Position numbers and translations under genes: made by a program
Shown: one piece after another, positions 20,481 to 35,704 of the stretch
How positions within the stretch are numbered: position 1 is the first letter of the stretch
Layout: every line of letters begins with the position of its first letter
Assembly: GCA_937936465.1 (NCBI GenBank)
Contig: CALDDH010000009.1
Location: 1 to 64,000 of the forward strand
Reading direction: 5' to 3'
From: an uncultured Mycoplasmatales bacterium
GTDB taxonomy: Bacteria; Bacillota_I; Bacilli_A; UBA3375
Length of the DNA: 64,000 nucleotides
Notes under the pieces: generated by a model
Database searches by the model: none
Told to the model about the DNA's origin: nothing
The model's input: the letters and a program-made list of their open reading frames with translations, nothing else

Positions 20481-20880
20481 TTCTTATTAAATTTATCTTT
20501 TATATCTTTAATATAATTGTCTTCTTCATAAAACTCTTCATAATCACGAATATCAACTTGTAAGTTTTGAAACACTTCCAATTTTAAATGTTTCTTAATA
20601 AAACCTTTTTGTTCAAAATTAATTAATGTTCTAAAAAGAATTAAGTTATCTTCCTGTATTATTAATTTTTGCTCATTATATTCATTTCCTTTTCAATATA
20701 TTGTTGATATTTAATTTTTGATAAATCATCACTCTTATTTTTTTTAATATATATTCTAATTCTTCATAGTCTGTAATAGGTAATCCATGCTTCTTATTAC
20801 TTAATATTTTATATTCTGGGTAGGCTTTATCTTTTATTTTAATTAATAATTTCAAAATTTTTTGAGTCTTTTTTCACTTA
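20481..20880 (-). pseudogene. cas13a: Decayed second cas13a fragment
   Basis: Minus-strand pieces in three frames align with residues ~855-985 of the intact Cas13a at 26155-29670: LLIKIKDKAYPEYKILSN, SDDLSKIKYQQYIEKE, then LIIQEDNLIL, RTLINFEQKGFIKK and DIRDYEEFYEEDN. Hand alignment of the longest block gives about two thirds identity, so it is a diverged relative and not a recent copy. At least two frameshifts are present. The HEPN2 domain is absent because the sequence breaks straight into the methyltransferase fragment near 20480. Confidence 0.85.
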
Positions 20881-24571: not shown

Positions 24572-24876
24572 GTTTTAGTCCCCTTCGTTTTTGGGGTCAT
24601 CTATATCAATACAAGTTTGTGAAAGAATGTAAATATTATGTTTTAGTCCCCTTCGTTTTTGGGGTCATCTATATCTCTAAAGTCTTGAACAATAACTCCA
24701 CTTGATAGTTTTAGTCCCCTTCGTTTTTGGGGTCATCTATATCTGGACAAAAGAAACTACCGAAGAGCCAACAGTTTTAGTCCCCTTCGTTTTTGGGGTC
24801 ATCTATATCAATAACAGATGTTGCAAACAATGTAATATACGTTTTAGTCCCCTTCGTTTTTGGGGTCATCTATATC
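24572..24876 (-). CRISPR. Type VI-A CRISPR array 1 (5 repeats, 4 spacers)
   Basis: Five identical 36-base repeats at 24572-24607, 24640-24675, 24708-24743, 24774-24809 and 24841-24876, with spacers of 32, 32, 30 and 31 bases. Read on the minus strand (crRNA sense) the repeat begins GATATAGATGACCCC and ends GGGGACTAAAAC, with a CCCC/GGGG stem. This is the Cas13a direct-repeat pattern, in which the repeat sits 5' of each spacer. The leader is on the high-coordinate side (24877-24930) and is shared with array 2. The array is cut off from cas13a by a dead IS3 element. Confidence 0.97.
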
Positions 24877-24930
24877 CAATGATTGGATATATACTTTAAT
24901 TATAATACTTTATCTTCAATATTACAAATT
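24871..24930 (-). promoter_or_regulatory. Leader and promoter of CRISPR array 1
   Basis: TTGTAA (24922-24927) and TATAAT (24899-24904), 17-base spacer, point into the array. A perfect palindrome with 9-bp arms (TATATCCAA/TTGGATATA, 24871-24891) straddles the leader-repeat junction. The ~55-base leader differs from the leader of array 2 at only about two positions. Confidence 0.8.
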
Positions 24931-24960
24931 ATTTTTAAACTTTTATATATTGATTTATCC

Positions 24961-25006
24961 TTATTTTAATTGTTTTTTTTCTATTTCGGTAATAATATAG
25001 TCTTAT
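24961..25006. repeat. Degenerate copy of the dispersed AT-rich repeat
   Basis: TATTTTAATTG ... CGGTAATAATATAG resembles the 37-bp repeat at 1694-1732 and 2494-2532. It lies directly left of the IS3 element. Confidence 0.4.
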
Positions 25007-26092
25007 GGATAGTCTATAATATATGTGACACAAAACTCTATTAATATTGATACAATATTATAAAGGAGAGATTATGTCAAAAAGAAAAACATATTCAAAA
25101 AAATTTAAGTTAAAAATTGTGCAATTAAAAGAAAGTGTTGTATCTAGAAAAAAATATTACAAGATTATGATTTGAAACACCAAACATTTGATCGTTGGTT
25201 AATGGTATAACGCATGTCAAGTAGTTCTTCAAACCCTGAAATTTCTTTAACCGATGAACAAAAGAAAATTTCAGAGTTAGAACGTAAATTACGTCAAGTC
25301 CAAAGAGCACGCGATATTTTAAAGGATGCAACCTTAATACTAGGGAGGAAATAATAACTGCTATTAAGGTATTAAATGAAGAAAAAGGATATTCAATAAG
25401 TGAATTATGCAAACAATTAAAAATAAGTCGTGAAACATATTATCGATACTTTAGAAAAAATAAAATATTCAAATATATGAAAGAAAACATTCAACGGCAA
25501 AGAAAAAAGAAATTTATGGAAGTAGAAAGATTCGTAATATTCTTAATACGTATAATATAAATGGAAAGAAAGTGAAGTTATCTCGCCACCAAATACTTAG
25601 AAAGATGAAGTAGATGGGTGGATATATATATGTTTCATAATAGATTTATTTAATCGTGAAATTATTGGATATTCAATCTCCAAGTATCATGATACTGAAT
25701 GTGTATTGAAATCATTGAAAAATATTAAATTTGATTTGAAGACTACTAGGTTATTTCATAGTGATCGTGGTGGAGAATTTGCCTCTGGTGAATTGTCAGA
25801 ATATCTAAATAAATTTGATATTACTCAATCAATGTCACGTGCTGGGTGTCCATACGATAATGCAGTTAGTGAAAATATGTTTAAATTATTGAAAGTTGAG
25901 GGGATCGATAGGTATTATCAATTTGATAGCAATTTAATGCTGGATGTAAATGAATGGGTCAAGTGGTATAACAATGTACGTATACATATAAAAATCAATT
26001 ATACTACACCTGTATTATACGGAAAACAATATGAATTAAAAACAGCTTAATTATTAATAGAGTATTTTGTCACATTAAAATTTGACAATCCA
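25006..26092 (+). mobile_element. IS3-family (IS150-like) insertion sequence, inactive
   Basis: A ~1.09-kb element bounded by imperfect ~40-bp inverted repeats starting TGGATWGTC (25006-25047 and 26051-26092) and containing orfA/orfB relics. No clean target duplication is visible (TTA versus TCA). It lies between CRISPR array 1 and the 3' end of cas13a. A left-end relic of the same element is at 828-916. Confidence 0.8.
25074..26050 (+). pseudogene. IS3-type transposase orfA/orfB, multiply broken
   Basis: orfA starts at ATG 25074 (MSKRKTYSKKFKLKIVQLKE) and then shifts frame. Its C-terminal coiled coil (DEQKKISELERKLRQVQRA) is still readable. orfB (KVLNEEKGYSISELCKQL...) is broken by frameshifts and an internal deletion that removes the region of the first catalytic Asp. 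The last open part (25706-26050) retains the second Asp in FHSDRGGEF and the Glu in NAVSENMFK. It cannot encode an active transposase. Confidence 0.88.
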
Positions 26093-26154: not shown

Positions 26155-29100
26155 TTAATATTTTATATTTCCCTTATTATTTAAAAGTAAAAATCTGATT
26201 TCTTCCATTACAATTAAATCTAATTCAATCTTAAAAATATCGTCCTTATTATAATAAATCGTTTTAACTTTTGGTTTTAAACCTTCTATTATAATCTTTT
26301 CTTTAAATAATATATCTGAAAAATCAATTTTATACTTTCTAAATATTGTAATTACTATCTCTTTTAAAGCATTTCTTTCTTTTATAAAGTTATTTTCATG
26401 TAATACTTTATGGTAAGCTAAAATAATCCCAAATATATTATCATTATCATTTAAATAATCATAGTGATCAATTCTATTTCTAATTGTATTCAAGTCTTTT
26501 ATATATGTTACTATTTGATCAAATTTTCTCATTTCAGACACTAACCTCATATTTAATTCATATTCAAATTTTATTTTTTTGACTAATAATTTTAATTTTA
26601 ATTTATTATCTAAGTAATCATGTTTCAATATATTCTTGTTTAATTGAATTAATTTGTTTTGTTTCTCATTAAAAACTTTACTTTCTAATTTATATATTTC
26701 TTTTCTTAATTCATTGTATTGGTCTTTTATATCCTTAATATGATTATCCTTTTTATAAAAATCTTCATATTCATGAATATCATTGTTTAAGTCTTGAAAG
26801 ATTTTAATTTCTAAATATTTCTTAATAAAACCTTTATTTTCAAAATTAATTAATGTTCTAGAAAGAATTAAGTTTTTTTCCTGAATTATTAAGGGTTGTT
26901 CTTTTATTTCATTTTCATTGTCAATATATTGTTTATATTTAATTGTTGATAAGTCCTCTCTATCATATATTATTTGCAATCTTTTATTCAATCCTTTGTA
27001 GCCCTCACCATGAATAGGAAATCCTTTTTTCCCATTACTTAACAATTGATATTTTGGAAGTTCTTTATCCTTTATTTTTAATAATAATGTAAGAAATTCT
27101 AGAAGTATTTCTAATTCTTCTAAATACTTCTCTCTAGTATTATTAATATCGTATTTATTTAAATATTCTGCGTGTTGGACTTTAAAATCATCTTCTTCAT
27201 ATCTTTTGGTTAAAATAGTTTTATACTTCAATGTGTTTTGAATCAATGAAGATATTTCATCTATACTATTGAAAATACTACTCATTACTATATATTTAAA
27301 ATTAATGTTTAATATTTGGATATTGTTTTTAACCTGATCTAATGTCTTTTTACATTGACATTCAATCTTAGGTATATTTTCATATTCTCTTCCACCTTCT
27401 ATTTGTTTGATATTATCAAAAATAAATCTATAGTTTTCTTTTATATAATCTCCAAAATTATAACTAATATATTTTTCAAATTTAATTTGATATTGCTTAA
27501 CTTTACTTTCATTACCATTAGCTAATTGAAGCAATTGTCTTTGTTTTTCAATTAAATCTATATCTTCATTTTTAAATATATCTATAAGTTTCTGATTTTT
27601 ATTACACAATGTGTCAAAATATTTATTATTTTTGATAGAACATAAAAAATCATTAACATGGTTATATATTTCTTCTAACAAATATTTTATTGCATTATAC
27701 TTTGTTATATTAAAATCCTTTTGATCAAGACCTAAAATTTGTCTAATATAGTTATCATCTATGCTTCTACTATGATTTATTAGTTTGTGAAACCTAGGTA
27801 ATGCAGTTTTTTTAATTGCAAAAATATCTAATCCACTATATAATTTATTAATTTTTTCTTGAGTAAAATACATATATATTGCATTACTATTTAATTTAGC
27901 TACTTCATATTCCGCTAAATCAAATTCATTAATTTTTTTTGACCAGTATATATTGTATTTTTTAATAAATTCTTCTATAATACATTCATCTAATTTACTA
28001 TCATCTTTAACATGATATAAATAATTTCTCAACCTTATTAGTGCTAATGATAATTCTGGACTTTCTTTTAGCTCATCAATATCTAGTTTATCTACTTTAT
28101 TATAGTAACATTTCTCATTAATTGCATTAATACCATCCCCAAATAAATCATTGTATTTATTTTTATCATTATTTTTATTGTATTTATTATTAAATAAATA
28201 TAATGTTGGAGAAATATTTTGAGCTAACTTTGATTTAAATGTATTTTCTAATTTAATTATTTCTTTTTGATACCTATTATGATTAAAATTTGTACTATTT
28301 ATATATGTATCATTTTGCATATCATTTTTCAATTCTTTTATAATATTGTATTGTATATTACTAAATATACTATTTTCAATTTTTGACTGTAAATATTTAA
28401 CTTTAAAATACTTCTTAATCTTTATTTGTTGTTCACTTTTATTTTCAATTAATAATATCTTTTTATAACGACCTTGTATAGTTTGATGAACTAATTTTAA
28501 AACCCTTAATGAATCATCTCCTTTAATTAATTTTGTGTCAATTGTTAAATGATTAATTAATTCTTCTTTTCCTTTTTCTTTATTTTCTATATATATTTTA
28601 AATTGACTTTGATAATGATTTTTTACTGTATTAATTAATTCAGATATCCCATTATTATAATTAACAGCATTAATTAATGCATTAACATTAAATTTTTCAA
28701 TAATTTTTTTTATATCACTTTTTATATTTTCATTTATCTTTTTAATTTCATCTTGTTTTTTTTGTTTTTCATTTTTTGACAAATTAGCTTTATCAAGATT
28801 AAATGTTTTATATTTAATTTCTTTAAAATATTTTTTTGCATTTATGCTTGGAAATGTAGAATTTAGTTTTTTATTAATTGAGCTAAATTCTCCCAACTTA
28901 TAATTACTTTTTAAAATACTATCTAATTGTATTTCACTTAAATTTTTATCATAAAACAAAAAGAATGAATAAATTTGCTTTAACATTTCTTCGCTCTTTA
29001 TATATTCATATAATTTATCATCATCAATAAAATTATTTTTTTCTAATTCTTTGGCAATAAATCTTATGAAGTTATTGAAGTGTTTTATCTTTAAATCACC

Positions 29101-29670
29101 CATACCTAATAGTAATTTTTCTATTTTTATTGGGTTTTTTTCATCTATTAATTTCTCCCTTGTGAATTGATCAAATGACTTTTCCACATTAGTAGTATTT
29201 TTACGATACACACCATCCATATTTATTTCAAATCTACATTTGAAATTATTATTATTATTATTAATTTCAAATAAAAAAAAATTTAAAAATTCATTTATTG
29301 CCTTTTTCAATTGATTTCTCTGGATTAATAAATCTCTTTCAAAATCTGTATAATAATCACGAGTTATTTTATGACCATTAATTCTATGTTTTCCATCAGA
29401 ATACTTTTTATTGAATCTCTCTTTAAATTTACTGTATGATTCATCATTTCCCTTTCTATTAACAATAAAATATTTTTCATTGTTTACACAATCTCCATCT
29501 ATTGATTTATAAACAATATTTTGGATTTGATTATCTTTGAATTCATAAATTATATTATTTTCAAAATATTTTTCTTTGATTTCACTAATATTGTGTATCT
29601 TTTTACCATACTTATATTTATTAATATCAACTCTCTCAATATTATATTGTTTAAATTTTCCTTTTGACAT
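26155..29670 (-). CDS. cas13a: Cas13a (C2c2), type VI-A CRISPR RNA-guided RNase
   Basis: 1171 residues, in the usual Cas13a range. Two HEPN RNase motifs of the RN-x3-H type are intact: HEPN1 RNYLYH (Arg548, Asn549, His553) and HEPN2 RNRIDH (Arg1064, Asn1065, His1069), with spacing and a C-terminal second HEPN as in Cas13a. It is Lys/Asn/Ile-rich with no other recognisable domain. Guided by crRNA from the adjacent arrays, family members bind complementary single-stranded RNA and then cut target and bystander RNA, causing dormancy of infected cells. ATG 29670 follows GAGGAG. It has its own TATAAT (29717-29722) after a terminator separating it from array 2. A relic relative lies at 20481-20880. 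Confidence 0.97.
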   Translation of the reverse strand: MSKGKFKQYNIERVDINKYKYGKKIHNISEIKEKYFENNIIYEFKDNQIQNIVYKSIDGDCVNNEKYFIVNRKGNDESYSKFKERFNKKYSDGKHRINGHKITRDYYTDFERDLLIQRNQLKKAINEFLNFFLFEINNNNNNFKCRFEINMDGVYRKNTTNVEKSFDQFTREKLIDEKNPIKIEKLLLGMGDLKIKHFNNFIRFIAKELEKNNFIDDDKLYEYIKSEEMLKQIYSFFLFYDKNLSEIQLDSILKSNYKLGEFSSINKKLNSTFPSINAKKYFKEIKYKTFNLDKANLSKNEKQKKQDEIKKINENIKSDIKKIIEKFNVNALINAVNYNNGISELINTVKNHYQSQFKIYIENKEKGKEELINHLTIDTKLIKGDDSLRVLKLVHQTIQGRYKKILLIENKSEQQIKIKKYFKVKYLQSKIENSIFSNIQYNIIKELKNDMQNDTYINSTNFNHNRYQKEIIKLENTFKSKLAQNISPTLYLFNNKYNKNNDKNKYNDLFGDGINAINEKCYYNKVDKLDIDELKESPELSLALIRLRNYLYHVKDDSKLDECIIEEFIKKYNIYWSKKINEFDLAEYEVAKLNSNAIYMYFTQEKINKLYSGLDIFAIKKTALPRFHKLINHSRSIDDNYIRQILGLDQKDFNITKYNAIKYLLEEIYNHVNDFLCSIKNNKYFDTLCNKNQKLIDIFKNEDIDLIEKQRQLLQLANGNESKVKQYQIKFEKYISYNFGDYIKENYRFIFDNIKQIEGGREYENIPKIECQCKKTLDQVKNNIQILNINFKYIVMSSIFNSIDEISSLIQNTLKYKTILTKRYEEDDFKVQHAEYLNKYDINNTREKYLEELEILLEFLTLLLKIKDKELPKYQLLSNGKKGFPIHGEGYKGLNKRLQIIYDREDLSTIKYKQYIDNENEIKEQPLIIQEKNLILSRTLINFENKGFIKKYLEIKIFQDLNNDIHEYEDFYKKDNHIKDIKDQYNELRKEIYKLESKVFNEKQNKLIQLNKNILKHDYLDNKLKLKLLVKKIKFEYELNMRLVSEMRKFDQIVTYIKDLNTIRNRIDHYDYLNDNDNIFGIILAYHKVLHENNFIKERNALKEIVITIFRKYKIDFSDILFKEKIIIEGLKPKVKTIYYNKDDIFKIELDLIVMEEIRFLLLNNKGNIKY

Positions 29671-29873: not shown

Positions 29874-30311
29874 TTACTTGTCCCTTTCGTTTTTGGTGGC
29901 ATCTATATCCATTTCAATATATTCCAGAAGAAAAAATAAGTTTTAGTTCCCTTCGTTTTTGGGGTCATCTATATCAAAATGAAAAGATCTTTACATTTTA
30001 TATTTAGTTTTAGTCTCATTCGTTTTTGGGGTCATCTATATCAGAAGCAAATACGACTACATTTACGACAGAGTTTTAGTCCCCTTCGTTTTTGGGGTCA
30101 TCTATATCCAAACACAATTGAAAGATTTTTAGTTGATTAGTTTTAGTCCCCTTCGTTTTTGGGGTCATCTATATCGTAGTATATAATTACCAGTTTACAG
30201 TGTTTGAGTTTTAGTCCCCTTCGTTTTTGGGGTCATCTATATCACAAATATTCAAAAAAGGAGGCTGATATATCAGTTTTAGTCCCCTTCGTTTTTGGGG
30301 TCATCTATATC
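29874..30311 (-). CRISPR. Type VI-A CRISPR array 2 (7 repeats, 6 spacers)
   Basis: 36-base repeats at 29874, 29940, 30007, 30073, 30140, 30208 and 30276 (last ends at 30311); spacers of 30, 31, 30, 31, 32 and 32 bases. The four repeats nearest the leader are identical to those of array 1. The one at 30007 has two changes, the one at 29940 has one, and the terminal repeat at 29874 is strongly degenerate (about seven changes). This decay away from the leader fits crRNA transcription on the minus strand. It lies between cas2 and cas13a. Confidence 0.97.
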
Positions 30312-30370
30312 CAATGATTGGATATATACTTTAATTATAGTACTTTATCTTAAATATTACAAATTTATTT
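30306..30370 (-). promoter_or_regulatory. Leader and promoter of CRISPR array 2
   Basis: TTGTAA (30357-30362) and TATAAT (30334-30339), 17-base spacer, reading into the array. The palindrome TATATCCAA-N3-TTGGATATA (30306-30326) spans the junction with the first repeat. The leader is nearly identical to that of array 1 and starts 26 bases after the cas2 stop. Confidence 0.8.
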
Positions 30371-30395
30371 TTTGTTTTTTTTAGTTTTTTTATCT

Positions 30396-30719
30396 TTAAA
30401 ATTCAATTAACCTTGTTTTCCTACTTATTATTTTCTCACTTAATGATTTATCCCCTGCTATTACTTCCATCTTTTCATATTGATTGTTTGGTATGAGTAA
30501 CATTCTAATATTTGAGTTGTTTGGGCTACTTAGTTTCAATTGACTTTTTAAATTTAAATAACTAGGTTTTTGATTCAAACTTTTTATATACACTGACTCT
30601 TGCAACATCATAAAGCCAATTGATAAAATATGCTTTCTAAATTTATTATAATCCTTTGATTCTTTAATATTATTATTTGGAATATCATATATTAAAATGA
30701 TTGTATATTTAATACTCAT
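30396..30719 (-). CDS. cas2: Cas2 adaptation protein
   Basis: ~107 residues from ATG 30719 (MSIKYTIILIYDIPNNN); an in-frame start ten codons earlier lies inside cas1 and is less likely. The ferredoxin-like fold is recognisable: beta-1 ending YDIPN with the conserved Asp, RKHILSIGFMMLQESVYI with the Q-x-S-V-y strand, and RMLLIPNNQYEKM. It overlaps the cas1 stop by 11 bases. It forms the integrase complex with Cas1. The similarity is to type II-A-like Cas2, as is typical for type VI-A adaptation modules. Confidence 0.93.
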   Translation of the reverse strand: MSIKYTIILIYDIPNNNIKESKDYNKFRKHILSIGFMMLQESVYIKSLNQKPSYLNLKSQLKLSSPNNSNIRMLLIPNNQYEKMEVIAGDKSLSEKIISRKTRLIEF

Positions 30720-31605
30720 AGTGCTCACAATTAGTAACTGGTAGATCAATCTTTTTTATATCATAATTTAAGTAATCAATTATATTATTAATAAATATTT
30801 GAACACTTGTTTTATACTCTTTCTTTTGATTATTAATGACTACTGTTTGAAATATTAACTGTTGTAAATATTCTTTTTCAACCTTGGTAAATATATTATC
30901 TTTAATCATCAACAAATATACAACATAATCTACCATTGGCCGATATACTTCAATTAAATCATCAGCTAAATTAAAGTTATTAAATTGATTACTGTGCCAA
31001 ATACCAAGTGCTGGGCTTAATCCTTTGGCAACTATTTGTTGTTTAATGACACTCCTTAAAATTGCATATCCATAATTAAGTCCATAATTTATCTCATCTT
31101 CTGCAAATCTAATAAATTTATTTGTATATAATTCTTTAAAATAAATTCTTGCAACTTGTGCTTCAATACTAATGAAATTATCTTTAGTTATTTTTAATTT
31201 TAAACATTTTATTTTTCTAATTATAGCTTGATCTTTATTAAAGTGTTCTAATAATAATAATTGATTATCTATTTTTTGCTCTATTATTTTCATAAATAAT
31301 TTTTGTTTACGACTTTCTTTCCATTTAATTTGTTTCTCTAACCTAGATAATTGTTTATAAAACGTATGAAAAGAAGTAGTTAGTGCCAGTGGGGTATATT
31401 TTTGATCACAATAAATAATTGGAACACTATATTTTGCACAAATTATATTTACTGATGCTGTTATGGAGCAATTTGGATTTTCAATTATTAATACTTCTAT
31501 TTGATTAATTGGAACTTTATTTGTCTCTTCATTGACTACTATGACTATGTTATTATTTTCAACTTTTAGTTTACTCATGCTTTTTACAGTTATGATATTA
31601 CTCAT
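30709..31605 (-). CDS. cas1: Cas1 spacer integrase
   Basis: 298 residues. The catalytic metal ligands are visible: Glu148 (SIEAQVARIYF), His204 (GIWHSNQFNNFN) and Glu219 (DLIEVYRPMVD), together with NYGLNYGYAILRS. The sequence resembles the Cas1 of type II-A systems. With Cas2 it inserts new spacers at the leader end. The start has AAAGGA nine bases upstream of ATG 31605. A hairpin terminator (31648-31682) isolates the gene from the upstream surface-protein gene. A complete adaptation module suggests this type VI-A locus can still acquire spacers. Confidence 0.95.
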   Translation of the reverse strand: MSNIITVKSMSKLKVENNNIVIVVNEETNKVPINQIEVLIIENPNCSITASVNIICAKYSVPIIYCDQKYTPLALTTSFHTFYKQLSRLEKQIKWKESRKQKLFMKIIEQKIDNQLLLLEHFNKDQAIIRKIKCLKLKITKDNFISIEAQVARIYFKELYTNKFIRFAEDEINYGLNYGYAILRSVIKQQIVAKGLSPALGIWHSNQFNNFNLADDLIEVYRPMVDYVVYLLMIKDNIFTKVEKEYLQQLIFQTVVINNQKKEYKTSVQIFINNIIDYLNYDIKKIDLPVTNCEHYEY

Positions 31606-31647: not shown

Positions 31648-31682
31648 TAAAAAAGCAACTAGTTATTTAATAACTAATCGCT
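31648..31682 (-). terminator. Terminator upstream of cas1
   Basis: On the minus strand a long stem (AGCGATTAGTTAT / ATAACTAGTTGCT with one mismatch) is followed by TTTTTT. It ends the transcript of the gene at 31732-32658. The stem is almost the same as that of the small RNA terminator at 34635-34667. Confidence 0.8.
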
Positions 31683-32802: not shown

Positions 32803-33645
32803 ATGAAAAGTTTTTTCTTAATAACAATTTCATTACTAATAATTAATTTAATAAAGCTTCAAGCACATCCAGGGGGAGTAGATTCATCAGGAGGCCATAC
32901 ATGTCATACAAATTGTGAGCAGTATGGATTAAGTCCAGAAGAGTATCATGATCATAGTAGTAGTTCAACTACAAAAACTGCTGATCCAACATATCAAAGT
33001 CCAGTTGAAATAGAACCAACTTCAATTGAAGTAAAAACTAATCAAGAGCCAACAATTACTACTAATTATTCAGCTACTATTAACGAAGATGATATTGATG
33101 AGACACTTAATAAAACACAAATTATTGAATTATTAAATATCTCAGTTGATGATCAAGAAGATGTAGAAATTAGATCAAATGATATTAATATTGATTCTAG
33201 TGAACTTAATAAAACTTCATATGGTGATAATATAATTACTATTTCATATACAGATCAGGCTGGATCACATGTCCAAAAAGAAGCAACTATTACCATTGAA
33301 AAACACATCAATCAAAAACCAGAGATTACAACTACTGTAACTGATAATTTCATAATGATCGATGAGGATCAAATACCTGAGAATATAAATGAGTTAATTA
33401 CTTTACTAGGAATTGAAGTAACAGACCCTGAAGATAGAGTCATTGAACTAGAACCTAGTAATTTTAAAGCCAAAGATAATTTACTACTTATACAAGTTGA
33501 AGACCAAGATGGTCAAAAAGAAAGTTTAGAAATTGAATACAAAATAAACTCAACTATCTTCGGTCAAATAATTGTTTTAATAATAATCTTTGCAGGAATC
33601 ATCGCCTTAGTTACTTTCCTAATTAAAAAATTAATAAAAGATTAA
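32803..33645 (+). CDS. Secreted YHYH-like domain protein with C-terminal anchor
   Basis: 280 residues. A signal peptide (about 1-21) precedes HPGGVDSSGGHTCHTNCEQYGL ... EEYHDH, the calcium/zinc-type YHYH motif region common in Gram-positive secreted proteins, here with YHDH in place of YHYH. Two Ig-like or cadherin-like blocks follow (NYSATINEDDIDETLNKTQ and VTDNFIMIDEDQIPENINEL, each about 80 residues), then a C-terminal membrane helix (about 253-275) and a lysine tail. The start has AAGGGG seven bases upstream. Function unknown; it is probably displayed on the surface. Confidence 0.75.
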   Translation: MKSFFLITISLLIINLIKLQAHPGGVDSSGGHTCHTNCEQYGLSPEEYHDHSSSSTTKTADPTYQSPVEIEPTSIEVKTNQEPTITTNYSATINEDDIDETLNKTQIIELLNISVDDQEDVEIRSNDINIDSSELNKTSYGDNIITISYTDQAGSHVQKEATITIEKHINQKPEITTTVTDNFIMIDEDQIPENINELITLLGIEVTDPEDRVIELEPSNFKAKDNLLLIQVEDQDGQKESLEIEYKINSTIFGQIIVLIIIFAGIIALVTFLIKKLIKD

Positions 33646-33667
33646 ATACTTAAATTAATAAAAATAA

Positions 33668-33694
33668 AACCTTGCATATAAGCAAGGCTTTTTT
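33668..33694 (+). terminator. Intrinsic terminator after the YHYH protein gene
   Basis: CCTTGC/GCAAGG arms (33670-33687) followed by CTTTTTT on the plus strand. Confidence 0.85.
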
Positions 33695-33728
33695 ATTCAA
33701 TATATTGTATAAACAATTAATATTACTT

Positions 33729-34619
33729 TTATATATTTAAGTAAAGTTCATATTTCATAATTATTATAAATATTTCATCTAACCACTCATTGGTACAATT
33801 CAATTTTTGATAATATTTTATGGATTTTTCTAATTCTCTAATAAAATCATTAAAAACATACTTTTTCATTTTAAATGTACAGTCATTCTTGCTTAAAAAA
33901 TAATGTACTAAATCAATCAAATATATTTGTTCTGTTAATAGAAATTTATTATAGTTTTTTTTTATATATTTTTTAGTTTCATATTTTTCTTCAGACCAAG
34001 TATCAGAAAATATTGTATTCAATATCTTCTCTTGAACTTGTTCTCTTTCTTGAACTGGTTTTAATTTTTGTTTTGTATCAAAATATAGTAAATTATCATG
34101 GTGAGAAACTTTATTTCTTATATTATTTATCTTTGGCTCAATAAATTTTTTTTCTTTAAATATATTATTATATATTGCTATCAAATCACTAAGGTAATAA
34201 TAATCATACAATTGAAAAAATTCAAAATTAGGATTTTTTAATGTTTTTTCAATTTCATTTATTTTATTTATAAATTTTTTTTGTTTTTTTTCTATATATA
34301 ATTTAATGTCATTGTTTATTTTTTGCTTATCAACTTTATTTTTTAAACTATAAATACGACTTAAATATACTTTTATTTGATGCTCAAATGTTTTTATTAA
34401 TATTTCAAATGCTCTACTATAATAAAAATTAACTAGCCCACCCATTCTAATATCATCAAATGTTAAATTATTATATTTACCATTTTGAAAACCTTTGAAC
34501 ATTTCTCTTGATGGCTTTAACAACTGCCAAGTTGTATTATACTCTAAATATTCTATTGTATTTATTTCATCATTAATTATTAAGCCTTTTTCTTTCAAAT
34601 TATCAATAACTTTTTGCAC
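33729..34619 (-). CDS. Abi/AbiF-like HEPN RNase (putative toxin of an RNA-protein module)
   Basis: ~296 residues from GTG 34619, just after AAGGGGGG. An earlier in-frame GTG at 34646 is inside a terminator stem and is unlikely. The N-terminus (VIDNLKEKGLIINDEINTIE ... LVNFYYSRAFEILIKTFEHQ) resembles the Abi_2/AbiD/AbiF phage-exclusion family. The HEPN catalytic motif RNKVSHH (Arg168, Asn169, His173) has the RN-x3-H form also seen in Cas13a. No membrane helix. Family members act as abortive-infection factors, probably by RNA cleavage. A promoter, structured small RNA and terminator directly upstream suggest an RNA antitoxin or guide-like partner. It lies 2.1 kb upstream of the type VI-A locus on the same strand. 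Confidence 0.75.
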   Translation of the reverse strand: MQKVIDNLKEKGLIINDEINTIEYLEYNTTWQLLKPSREMFKGFQNGKYNNLTFDDIRMGGLVNFYYSRAFEILIKTFEHQIKVYLSRIYSLKNKVDKQKINNDIKLYIEKKQKKFINKINEIEKTLKNPNFEFFQLYDYYYLSDLIAIYNNIFKEKKFIEPKINNIRNKVSHHDNLLYFDTKQKLKPVQEREQVQEKILNTIFSDTWSEEKYETKKYIKKNYNKFLLTEQIYLIDLVHYFLSKNDCTFKMKKYVFNDFIRELEKSIKYYQKLNCTNEWLDEIFIIIMKYELYLNI

Positions 34620-34634
34620 GTCCCCCCTTAAAAT

Positions 34635-34716
34635 AAAAAAAGCCACTAGTTATATAATAACTAATGGTAAAATCCTAACATAAATGTTTGATTTTCTCCA
34701 GTACCCCTGTACCTAC
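34635..34716 (-). ncRNA. Putative ~80-nt structured small RNA upstream of the HEPN gene
   Basis: Predicted transcript on the minus strand, from about 34716 to a T-run at 34635-34641. Three hairpins can be drawn: GTAC-AGGG-GTAC at the 5' end; a central stem with AAAATC/GATTTT and inner AACAT/ATGTT; and a terminator with 11-bp arms (34643-34667, one mismatch). It has no ORF and ends 16 bases before the HEPN start. The arrangement promoter-RNA-terminator-toxin gene is that of RNA-antitoxin modules; its true role is inferred. Confidence 0.6.
34643..34667 (-). terminator. Terminator of the small RNA
   Basis: CCATTAGTTAT / ATAACTAGTGG arms with a 3-base loop, followed on the minus strand by GCTTTTTTT. 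Leaky read-through would feed the HEPN gene. Confidence 0.85.
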
Positions 34717-34722
34717 ACATAT

Positions 34723-34751
34723 ATTATAACACAATTTAATAATTAAGCCAA
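34723..34751 (-). promoter_or_regulatory. Promoter of the small RNA-HEPN module
   Basis: TTGGCT (34746-34751) and TATAAT (34723-34728) with an exact 17-base spacer. Confidence 0.8.
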
Positions 34752-34834
34752 GTGCTTTATTTAATTATTTATATTTGTTTTGTTAAGATGGATTGTTTAT
34801 TATTCAAATAAATTAAATTCATTTCAGTAATTTT

Positions 34835-35704
34835 TTAAGTTACTTTCTTTTTAAACTTAGTGAAATTAACTTCATCAACTAATACTGCACTAAATAAGAA
34901 TGTTCCACCAATTAAAATCATTGCAGTGAATGGTTCATTTAAGAATAAGATTGCAAAGAAGGCACCCCATAGTGACTCTGTTGCTAAGATAATACTACCT
35001 CTTGCTTCATCTGTATATTTAAGGCCGATGTTTTGTAATAAGAAACATAAAGCTGAAGGTATTAAACCGACCCAAATTAAGACATATATATTAACTTTTT
35101 GAATTTCACCTAACATACTTACGCCTGTTGTTGGCATTACAAGTAGTGCAAGCACACCACACACAATCATTTGACCAACTGCTAATTTAATAATATCTAC
35201 TTTCTTTGAATAATGACTAATTAAAACAATGTGTAGTGCAAAGAACATTGCTCCAATAATTGCAATTAAATCACCAAGCATCAACTCTTCAATTCCACCT
35301 GTTAATAATTGGATTCCAATTAATGTTAAGGCAACTGAAACTAAATGTTTACTTGCGATTGTTTTCTTATAAAATAAATACCCAAATATTGGTACAAAGA
35401 CAACATTAGTTCCAGTAATAAATGATACATTTGTTGTTGTTGTATAGTTCATTGCTATTGTTTGGGTCATAAACCCTAAATATAAAACTATCCCAACTAA
35501 TAGTGGACCAAGTAAATCTTGTTTTCTAAACTTCAGTCTTTTATGAAATATAATACTTAATGTAATTCCGGCAATTAAAAAACGGGCTCCTACTAATGCA
35601 TTTGGATTCATTCCTGATGTTAGCAGAACATCTGTACCTAAATATCCCAGACCCCAAAAAACTGCAGTAATCCATAAAATTATATCTGCTCTTTTCTCAC
35701 TCAT
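34835..35704 (-). CDS. EamA/DMT-family transporter
   Basis: 289 residues with ten membrane helices forming two EamA repeats. The N-terminal half has ITAVFWGLGYLGTDVLL and VGARFLIAG, the second half SALCFLLQNIGLKYTDEA and ESLWGAFFAILFLNEPF, the usual signatures of drug/metabolite exporters. The substrate is unknown. ATG 35704 has an AAGGAGAAAG ribosome site. Monocistronic. Confidence 0.9.
   Translation of the reverse strand: MSEKRADIILWITAVFWGLGYLGTDVLLTSGMNPNALVGARFLIAGITLSIIFHKRLKFRKQDLLGPLLVGIVLYLGFMTQTIAMNYTTTTNVSFITGTNVVFVPIFGYLFYKKTIASKHLVSVALTLIGIQLLTGGIEELMLGDLIAIIGAMFFALHIVLISHYSKKVDIIKLAVGQMIVCGVLALLVMPTTGVSMLGEIQKVNIYVLIWVGLIPSALCFLLQNIGLKYTDEARGSIILATESLWGAFFAILFLNEPFTAMILIGGTFLFSAVLVDEVNFTKFKKKVT

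Follow-up and report, generated by a model that had tools for sequence, protein, structure and literature searches.

A divergent AbiF-like HEPN gene with a predicted structured leader RNA near a Cas13a-like locus of an uncultured Mycoplasmatales bacterium

Does a gene for a stand-alone HEPN protein that lies within a few kilobases of a Cas13a-like CRISPR locus encode the toxin of an RNA-restrained pair, and does its position carry meaning for either system? The question is raised by a 64,000-nt stretch of DNA from an uncultured Mycoplasmatales bacterium (contig CALDDH010000009.1, positions 1 to 64,000; hereafter the window, in whose coordinates all positions are given unless another locus is named). 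A first-pass annotation of this DNA had proposed an AbiF-like protein preceded by a promoter, a small structured RNA and a terminator, and had suggested that the presence of such a module near Cas13a could be informative about the transition from AbiF to Cas13. The features on which the analysis turns are collected in Table 1.

Table 1. Positions of the abiF-like module and of the Cas13a-like locus in the window.
Feature	Coordinates	Strand	Basis
Promoter TTGGCT-17-TATAAT with extended -10	34723..34751	-	sequence match and shuffles
Predicted leader RNA, about 81 nt	34635..34716	-	promoter, terminator, fold (z -3.45)
Hairpin 1 of leader RNA, 5 pairs	34700..34713	-	MFE structure
Hairpin 2, outer 6-pair and inner 4-pair stems, 1/2-nt internal loop	34669..34695	-	MFE structure
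Intrinsic terminator stem-loop, 11 pairs, then T7 (34641-34635)	34643..34667	-	terminator prediction
Shine-Dalgarno-like AAGGGGGG, short spacing to GTG 34619	34622..34629	-	sequence reading
abiF-like gene, 296 aa, predicted HEPN RNase fold	33729..34619	-	bridging homology via L002 and AF2 model
HEPN catalytic motif RNKVSH (R168-H173, numbered from GTG 34619)	34101..34118	-	codons checked; R168, N169, H173 invariant in A3/A6
Cas13a-like effector, 1171 aa, R-x4-H motifs RNYLYH and RNRIDH	26155..29670	-	ORF and motifs
cas2 (30396-30749) and cas1 (30709-31605)	30396..31605	-	family matches
CRISPR array 1, 5 repeats, VI-A-type repeat	24572..24876	-	repeat analysis
CRISPR array 2, 7 repeats, far ones degenerate	29874..30311	-	repeat analysis

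The minus-strand open reading frame at 33729-34646 is real, but it runs into the end of the predicted terminator with its first 9 codons. Such an early start, inside the terminator, is unlikely; translation likely begins at GTG 34619-34617, behind AAGGGGGG, which gives a protein of 296 aa. The neighbouring gene upstream on the minus strand encodes an EamA transporter and has its stop at 34835. The stand-alone HEPN protein with a Cas13-type RN-x3-H motif that had been claimed for this locus is thus present, the motif reading RNKVSH. Its residues R168, N169 and H173 are invariant in two alignments, A3 (28 rows: the window protein, the prophage protein L036 and 26 of 41 viral AbiF proteins) and A6 (46 rows, described below), where they occupy the motif position of the AbiF/Abi_2 family, and its R and H align with R210 and H215 of PbAbiF, residues whose roles are treated in PMC12373285. 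No second AbiF copy was found in the genome by a search with the AbiF-wide profile A3.

Assignment of the protein to a family by sequence depends on an intermediate. The window protein has no Pfam, NCBIfam or PADLOC family match; PF07751 matches neither it nor any other part of the source genome over the cut-off, and a search of PDB sequences with the window protein alone gives nothing below E 0.056. A protein search of 100 genomes (the source genome included) matched three, namely the source genome itself, G028 (locus L002, E 1.8e-11) and G001 (locus L003, E 4.8e-8). L003, which is decayed, is the nearest relative by host, G001 being in the same family as the source genome. L002, with the motif RNLYAH, falls just below the PF07751 cut-off (22.8 bits against 25.6, E 1.3e-4). 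In an hhalign profile comparison, the window protein and L002 together score 96.8% (E 2.2e-10) against a set of nine Abi_2 proteins, across 93 N-terminal columns. When a profile was built from 80 Abi_2 proteins of genome contigs together with L002, the window protein scored 18.0 bits (reached by 0/1000 shuffles); the same profile without L002 fails to detect it (1.5 bits, reached by 7/1000 shuffles). The sequence link therefore runs mainly through L002. Against a profile built from 29 Abi_2 proteins of the class, the window protein scores 4.1 bits, which none of 1000 shuffles reaches.

Other searches returned few relatives. None was found in phages or plasmids by tblastn, in viral contigs searched with the single window protein, or in genome contigs searched with alignment A1. 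Viral contigs searched with A1 yielded one, L036, which encodes the same protein as L002 behind an identical leader, and A1 run against 392 genomes of the phylum added L035 as the sole further locus.

Structure prediction points the same way over the whole protein. An AF2 model calculated from the window protein and 45 relatives (alignment A6) has pLDDT 80.1 and pTM 0.80; the rows of A6 are the window protein, L036 and 44 of the 80 genome-contig Abi_2 proteins, drawn from the 50 best-ranked, of which six were omitted (L168, identical to L166, and L141, L110, L132, L129 and L170). Compared with solved PbAbiF (8vz6), the model gives Z 12.3 over 252 of its 296 residues with an rmsd of 3.9 and 13% identity, and the next chain scores 4.7. 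Foldseek likewise places 8vz6 at rank 1 (prob 0.97, E 0.055). An earlier AF2 model made with the canonical viral rows of A3 was poor (pLDDT 50.4), and in a search of PDB sequences with profile A4, 8vz6 ranked fifth with E 0.11, behind ferritins and a designed protein. No Cas13 chain is among the matches listed by VIA-align and Foldseek, an absence that is uninformative there. Because Abi_2 rows guided it, the model supports rather than proves an AbiF fold across the protein. The assignment is nevertheless judged safe, since unrelated chains score far lower and the R, N and H of the motif do not vary, and we consider it very probable that the window protein is a divergent AbiF/Abi_2 HEPN protein; the AbiF-like identity first proposed from the letters of the sequence is thus supported by the bridging homologue, the comparison of profiles and the predicted structure.

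The region between the EamA stop and the abiF-like start contains each of the elements that had been described there. The promoter has an exact -10, TG before the -10 and four of six matches at the -35 (10/12 in total), with the claimed spacing of 17; the terminator, of 11 pairs followed by T7, ends just before the Shine-Dalgarno-like sequence. The RNA predicted between them, from 34716 to about 34635, agrees with the ~80 nt and three hairpins of the first-pass annotation: its MFE structure (-19.7 kcal/mol) has three hairpins, the last being that of the terminator, and 1/300 shuffles are equally stable. Removal of the terminator reduces the folding signal to z -1.87 (46/1000 shuffles equally stable), and much of the leader fold signal is therefore the terminator. 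A longer stretch (34728-34624) folds otherwise outside the terminator (z -1.96, 7/200 shuffles).

How far these elements exceed chance differs between them. Promoter-like sites in 33600-34900 number 12 against 13.9 expected from shuffles, which is not above chance, whereas terminators number 3 against 0.1. A terminator by itself is unremarkable, being found within 120 nt upstream of 4/45 window genes. Nine promoters with 10/12 matches and an extended -10 occur on both strands of the 64 kb, and that of abiF alone is then followed by a terminator within 40-150 nt, by thresholds (10/12, extended -10, 40-150 nt) that were chosen after the site was known; in dinucleotide shuffles of 34620-34834, 0/2000 give promoter and terminator in order. 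By sequence prediction, abiF is immediately preceded by a promoter, a short structured RNA and a terminator, the arrangement of AbiF-ncRNA (type III-like) systems, and the RNA-antitoxin/HEPN-toxin architecture claimed earlier does correspond, in the order of its elements, to the published one.

The leaders of homologues show how widely this layout extends. The Rfam model of abiF RNA, RF03085, has no match over its gathering cut-off of 37 bits in the window RNA. The model is a weak test, since it exceeds the cut-off in 0/18 clear Abi_2 loci of the class. It does so in 2/20 viral AbiF loci searched (of 45), the match lying 19 nt before the abiF ORF in L064 and covering the initial codons of the longest ORF in L055; among 10 genomes searched, three have sub-threshold matches and none has one over the cut-off, and sub-threshold matches stand before Abi_2 genes in G004 and G107. 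By eye, the loci L002/L036 and L003 repeat the window's order ahead of the abiF start: first a promoter-like site, then a stretch of a size to encode such an RNA, and last a terminator. The leader RNAs of the window, L002 and L003 are unalignable (pair scores reached by 44, 226 and 127 of 300 shuffles); the L002 RNA folds strongly (z -4.21), the L003 RNA weakly (z -1.42, 26/300 shuffles). In the wider subfamily a terminator lies within 120 nt upstream in 8/80 loci. Upstream folding in the 50 of these 80 loci that have 120 nt of non-coding sequence shows no excess over 121 control genes (p 0.30), with z below -2 for 8/50 abiF genes and 18/121 controls. Among canonical viral abiF genes 9/40 are preceded by a terminator, where shuffles predict 2.4; for abiF genes of the class the count is 1/29 against 0.6 expected. 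The layout is therefore one of a small clade and a minority of relatives, not of all.

The leader shared by L036 and L002 is conspicuously structured. It is a 511-nt non-coding abiF leader (L036 3480-3990, plus strand; identical in L002) with z -7.55, to which 0/100 shuffles are equal in stability, and by eye it contains about six different tandem hairpins before a final terminator. It is possibly a multi-unit antitoxin RNA. The antitoxin RNAs of type III systems frequently consist of arrayed repeats. MAFFT gives no invariant column, and hence no common unit, among the L002 leader hairpins; the search for further copies of this leader returned just two 31-base phage matches and its own contig. 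In L036 the abiF gene lies beyond the holin, M23 peptidase and SocA/Panacea genes of a prophage.

Two characterised systems provide the closest comparison. In Clostridioides difficile, a SigA-type promoter drives RCd22, a structured RNA about 100 nt long, which ends at a Rho-independent terminator with readthrough into the gene of AbiFCd; the protein is toxic, changes to the motif's R and H abolish the toxicity, and direct RNA binding neutralises it (PMC12373285). The window, known from sequence alone, resembles this system in promoter, structured RNA, terminator and HEPN R-N-x3-H motif. AbiFCd belongs to a lysis module, and the homologous prophage locus L036 is likewise situated beyond holin and M23 peptidase genes. 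The two differ in that RCd22 has two RF03085 motifs and the window RNA none, and in that the window protein has diverged beyond the reach of PF07751. PbAbiF with its RNA AbiFr (8VZ6; Prevotellaceae bacterium), described in PMC12737573, is the best structural match of the predicted model, with the same catalytic positions, but has little sequence identity to the window protein (13%). The nearest large group by profile is the AbiD (PADLOC PDLC02344)/Abi_2 subfamily of L035 and L089, from which the window differs in that the PADLOC AbiD model recognises L035 and L089 yet neither L002 nor the window protein, and in that loci of the subfamily mostly have no upstream terminator. AbiF and AbiD are both placed in the HEPN superfamily in PMC3710099.

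The best reading of the locus is a small RNA-restrained HEPN RNase module of the AbiF kind, because its elements are arranged as in the characterised AbiF-ncRNA pairs; by analogy with these we give this reading a probability of roughly 0.68. Transcription from the promoter at 34751-34723 would produce a short structured RNA ending at the terminator just before the gene, and occasional terminator readthrough would supply the abiF-like mRNA. The product would be a HEPN RNase, probably dimeric, acting through R168 and H173, and the RNA most likely would limit it in two ways: transcription would end early, and the RNA would bind the protein. Should the supply of RNA fail, for example during phage infection, the freed protein would cut RNA and growth would stop. 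Homology, predicted fold, motif and promoter/RNA/terminator layout are the basis for this scheme in the window; transcription, dimer, RNA binding, toxicity and anti-phage role are carried over from AbiFCd and PbAbiF.

The main rival is that the leader is a cis attenuator only, limiting abiF transcription by termination without binding or neutralising the protein. It accommodates the facts that the terminator is the firmest element, that the body of the RNA folds modestly on its own, and that the RNA is neither an RF03085 member nor alignable with homologous leaders; the characterised relative, however, both attenuates and binds directly (PMC12373285), and we regard attenuation alone as unlikely. 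A second rival dispenses with a separate RNA altogether, the terminator serving to end the EamA gene, the promoter-like site being due to chance and the protein working without an RNA partner. The terminator does lie 168 nt after the EamA stop with no other predicted between, promoter-like sites are common in AT-rich sequence, as the counts above indicate, and 72/80 wider-subfamily loci have no upstream terminator. Yet the window has no second extended -10 site of such quality with a terminator following it, no shuffle reproduced the combination, and L002 and L003 share the layout, which makes this account improbable.

There remains the neighbourhood. The CRISPR components (two arrays, effector ORF, cas2 and cas1) span 24.6-31.6 kb, and the name Cas13a is given because of the two R-x4-H motifs, cas2, cas1 and the two arrays with a VI-A-type repeat. 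The effector is unrecognised in Pfam, NCBIfam, PADLOC or PDB sequence searches, and no relatives of it were found in viral contigs, in plasmids (tblastn) or in 99 other genomes. By its failed family, PDB and plasmid matches it is a very divergent Cas13a and deserves its own study. A second Cas13a-like gene is represented at 20486-20831 (minus strand) by a piece with 67% identity over 67 residues to effector residues 920-986, together with further short pieces and many stops. The remains of an insertion-sequence transposase lie between array 1 and the effector gene (about 25050-26060, plus strand), with integrase core domains in 25706-26047 and a frame that is apparently broken. The ends of the two arrays and 70-90 nt beyond them are near copies of each other (24835-24963 and 30270-30398; 129 nt, 87% identity), which makes them a duplicated array end, probably the leader. 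VI-A-type repeats occur in 3/395 genomes of the class (the source genome, G001 and G030), as judged by a pattern based on the Leptotrichia-type form of the repeat.

The start of the Cas13a-like gene is about 4 kb from abiF, and cas1 is 2 kb from it; the two genes between cas1 and abiF have no family match over cut-off. In G001, cas1, cas2 and the VI-A-type repeat share one short contig and the decayed abiF is on another, behind aro genes (dehydroquinase, shikimate kinase). In G030 neither the abiF protein of the window nor PF07751, which misses the window protein as well, finds a match, and the G030 contig examined has no match to the window effector. Similarity of the leader RNA to the CRISPR repeat was considered and rejected, being at chance (score reached by 632/1000 shuffles). 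Targeting of the abiF locus by spacers was also rejected, as each of the 10 spacers (30-32 bases) has at least 10 mismatches to 33600-34850. As a separate observation, a 21-nt terminator hairpin with one variable base occurs on the minus strand at 31658-31678, about 50 nt before cas1, and at 34645-34665, before abiF. It has no further mismatch-free copy in the genome; only exact matches are meaningful here, because at up to 2 mismatches a reversed control matched 13 times. In the titles and abstract openings of the literature searched (mostly without subscription papers), no report of AbiF-Cas13 co-location was found.

On present evidence no functional link between abiF and Cas13a is found, and their nearness is ordinary. 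A broader proposal, that the window/L002/L003 clade has its own RNA class distinct from RF03085, in which the various hairpins of the 511-nt leader serve as a multi-unit antitoxin, and that the module beside the VI-A locus perhaps shares a regulatory hairpin with it, so that ancestor-type and descendant-type RNA-restrained HEPN RNases would act in one defence neighbourhood, is improbable. A functional tie between the module and the Cas13a locus, in which the former would be a guard or partner released on CRISPR failure, is highly improbable, since against its short distance from cas1 and the effector gene and the single mismatch-free recurrence of its terminator hairpin before cas1 stand the intervening genes without family match, the chance-level likeness of repeat and RNA, the mismatched spacers, the separate contigs of abiF and cas1 in G001, and G030, which has VI-A-type repeats yet no match to the window protein or PF07751.

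The suggestion that this neighbourhood is informative about the AbiF-to-Cas13 transition accordingly finds no support, given the decayed abiF of G001 on a contig other than that of cas1 and the lack of a match in G030. The proposals of Cas13 origin from AbiF that had been invoked in its favour do exist: kinship of the two is in print in PMC12373285 and PMC12737573, the latter including a proposed AbiF-to-Cas13 path. The window protein shares with the HEPN domains of Cas13a the R-x4-H motif, and the descent of Cas13 from AbiF is published, but it has one HEPN motif in 296 aa, is without guide RNA or array, and shows no intermediate features. The evolutionary framing has thus been published before, and the present neighbourhood does not carry it further.

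The kind of system described here is also already known, and the window module is a divergent member of it. AbiF being the published ancestor type of Cas13, a divergent AbiF that escapes Pfam, NCBIfam and PADLOC and has a leader different from the known motif adds to the RNA-HEPN pairs available for studying the step from antitoxin RNA to guide RNA, and it indicates that surveys of AbiF by Pfam or Rfam alone undercount the family.
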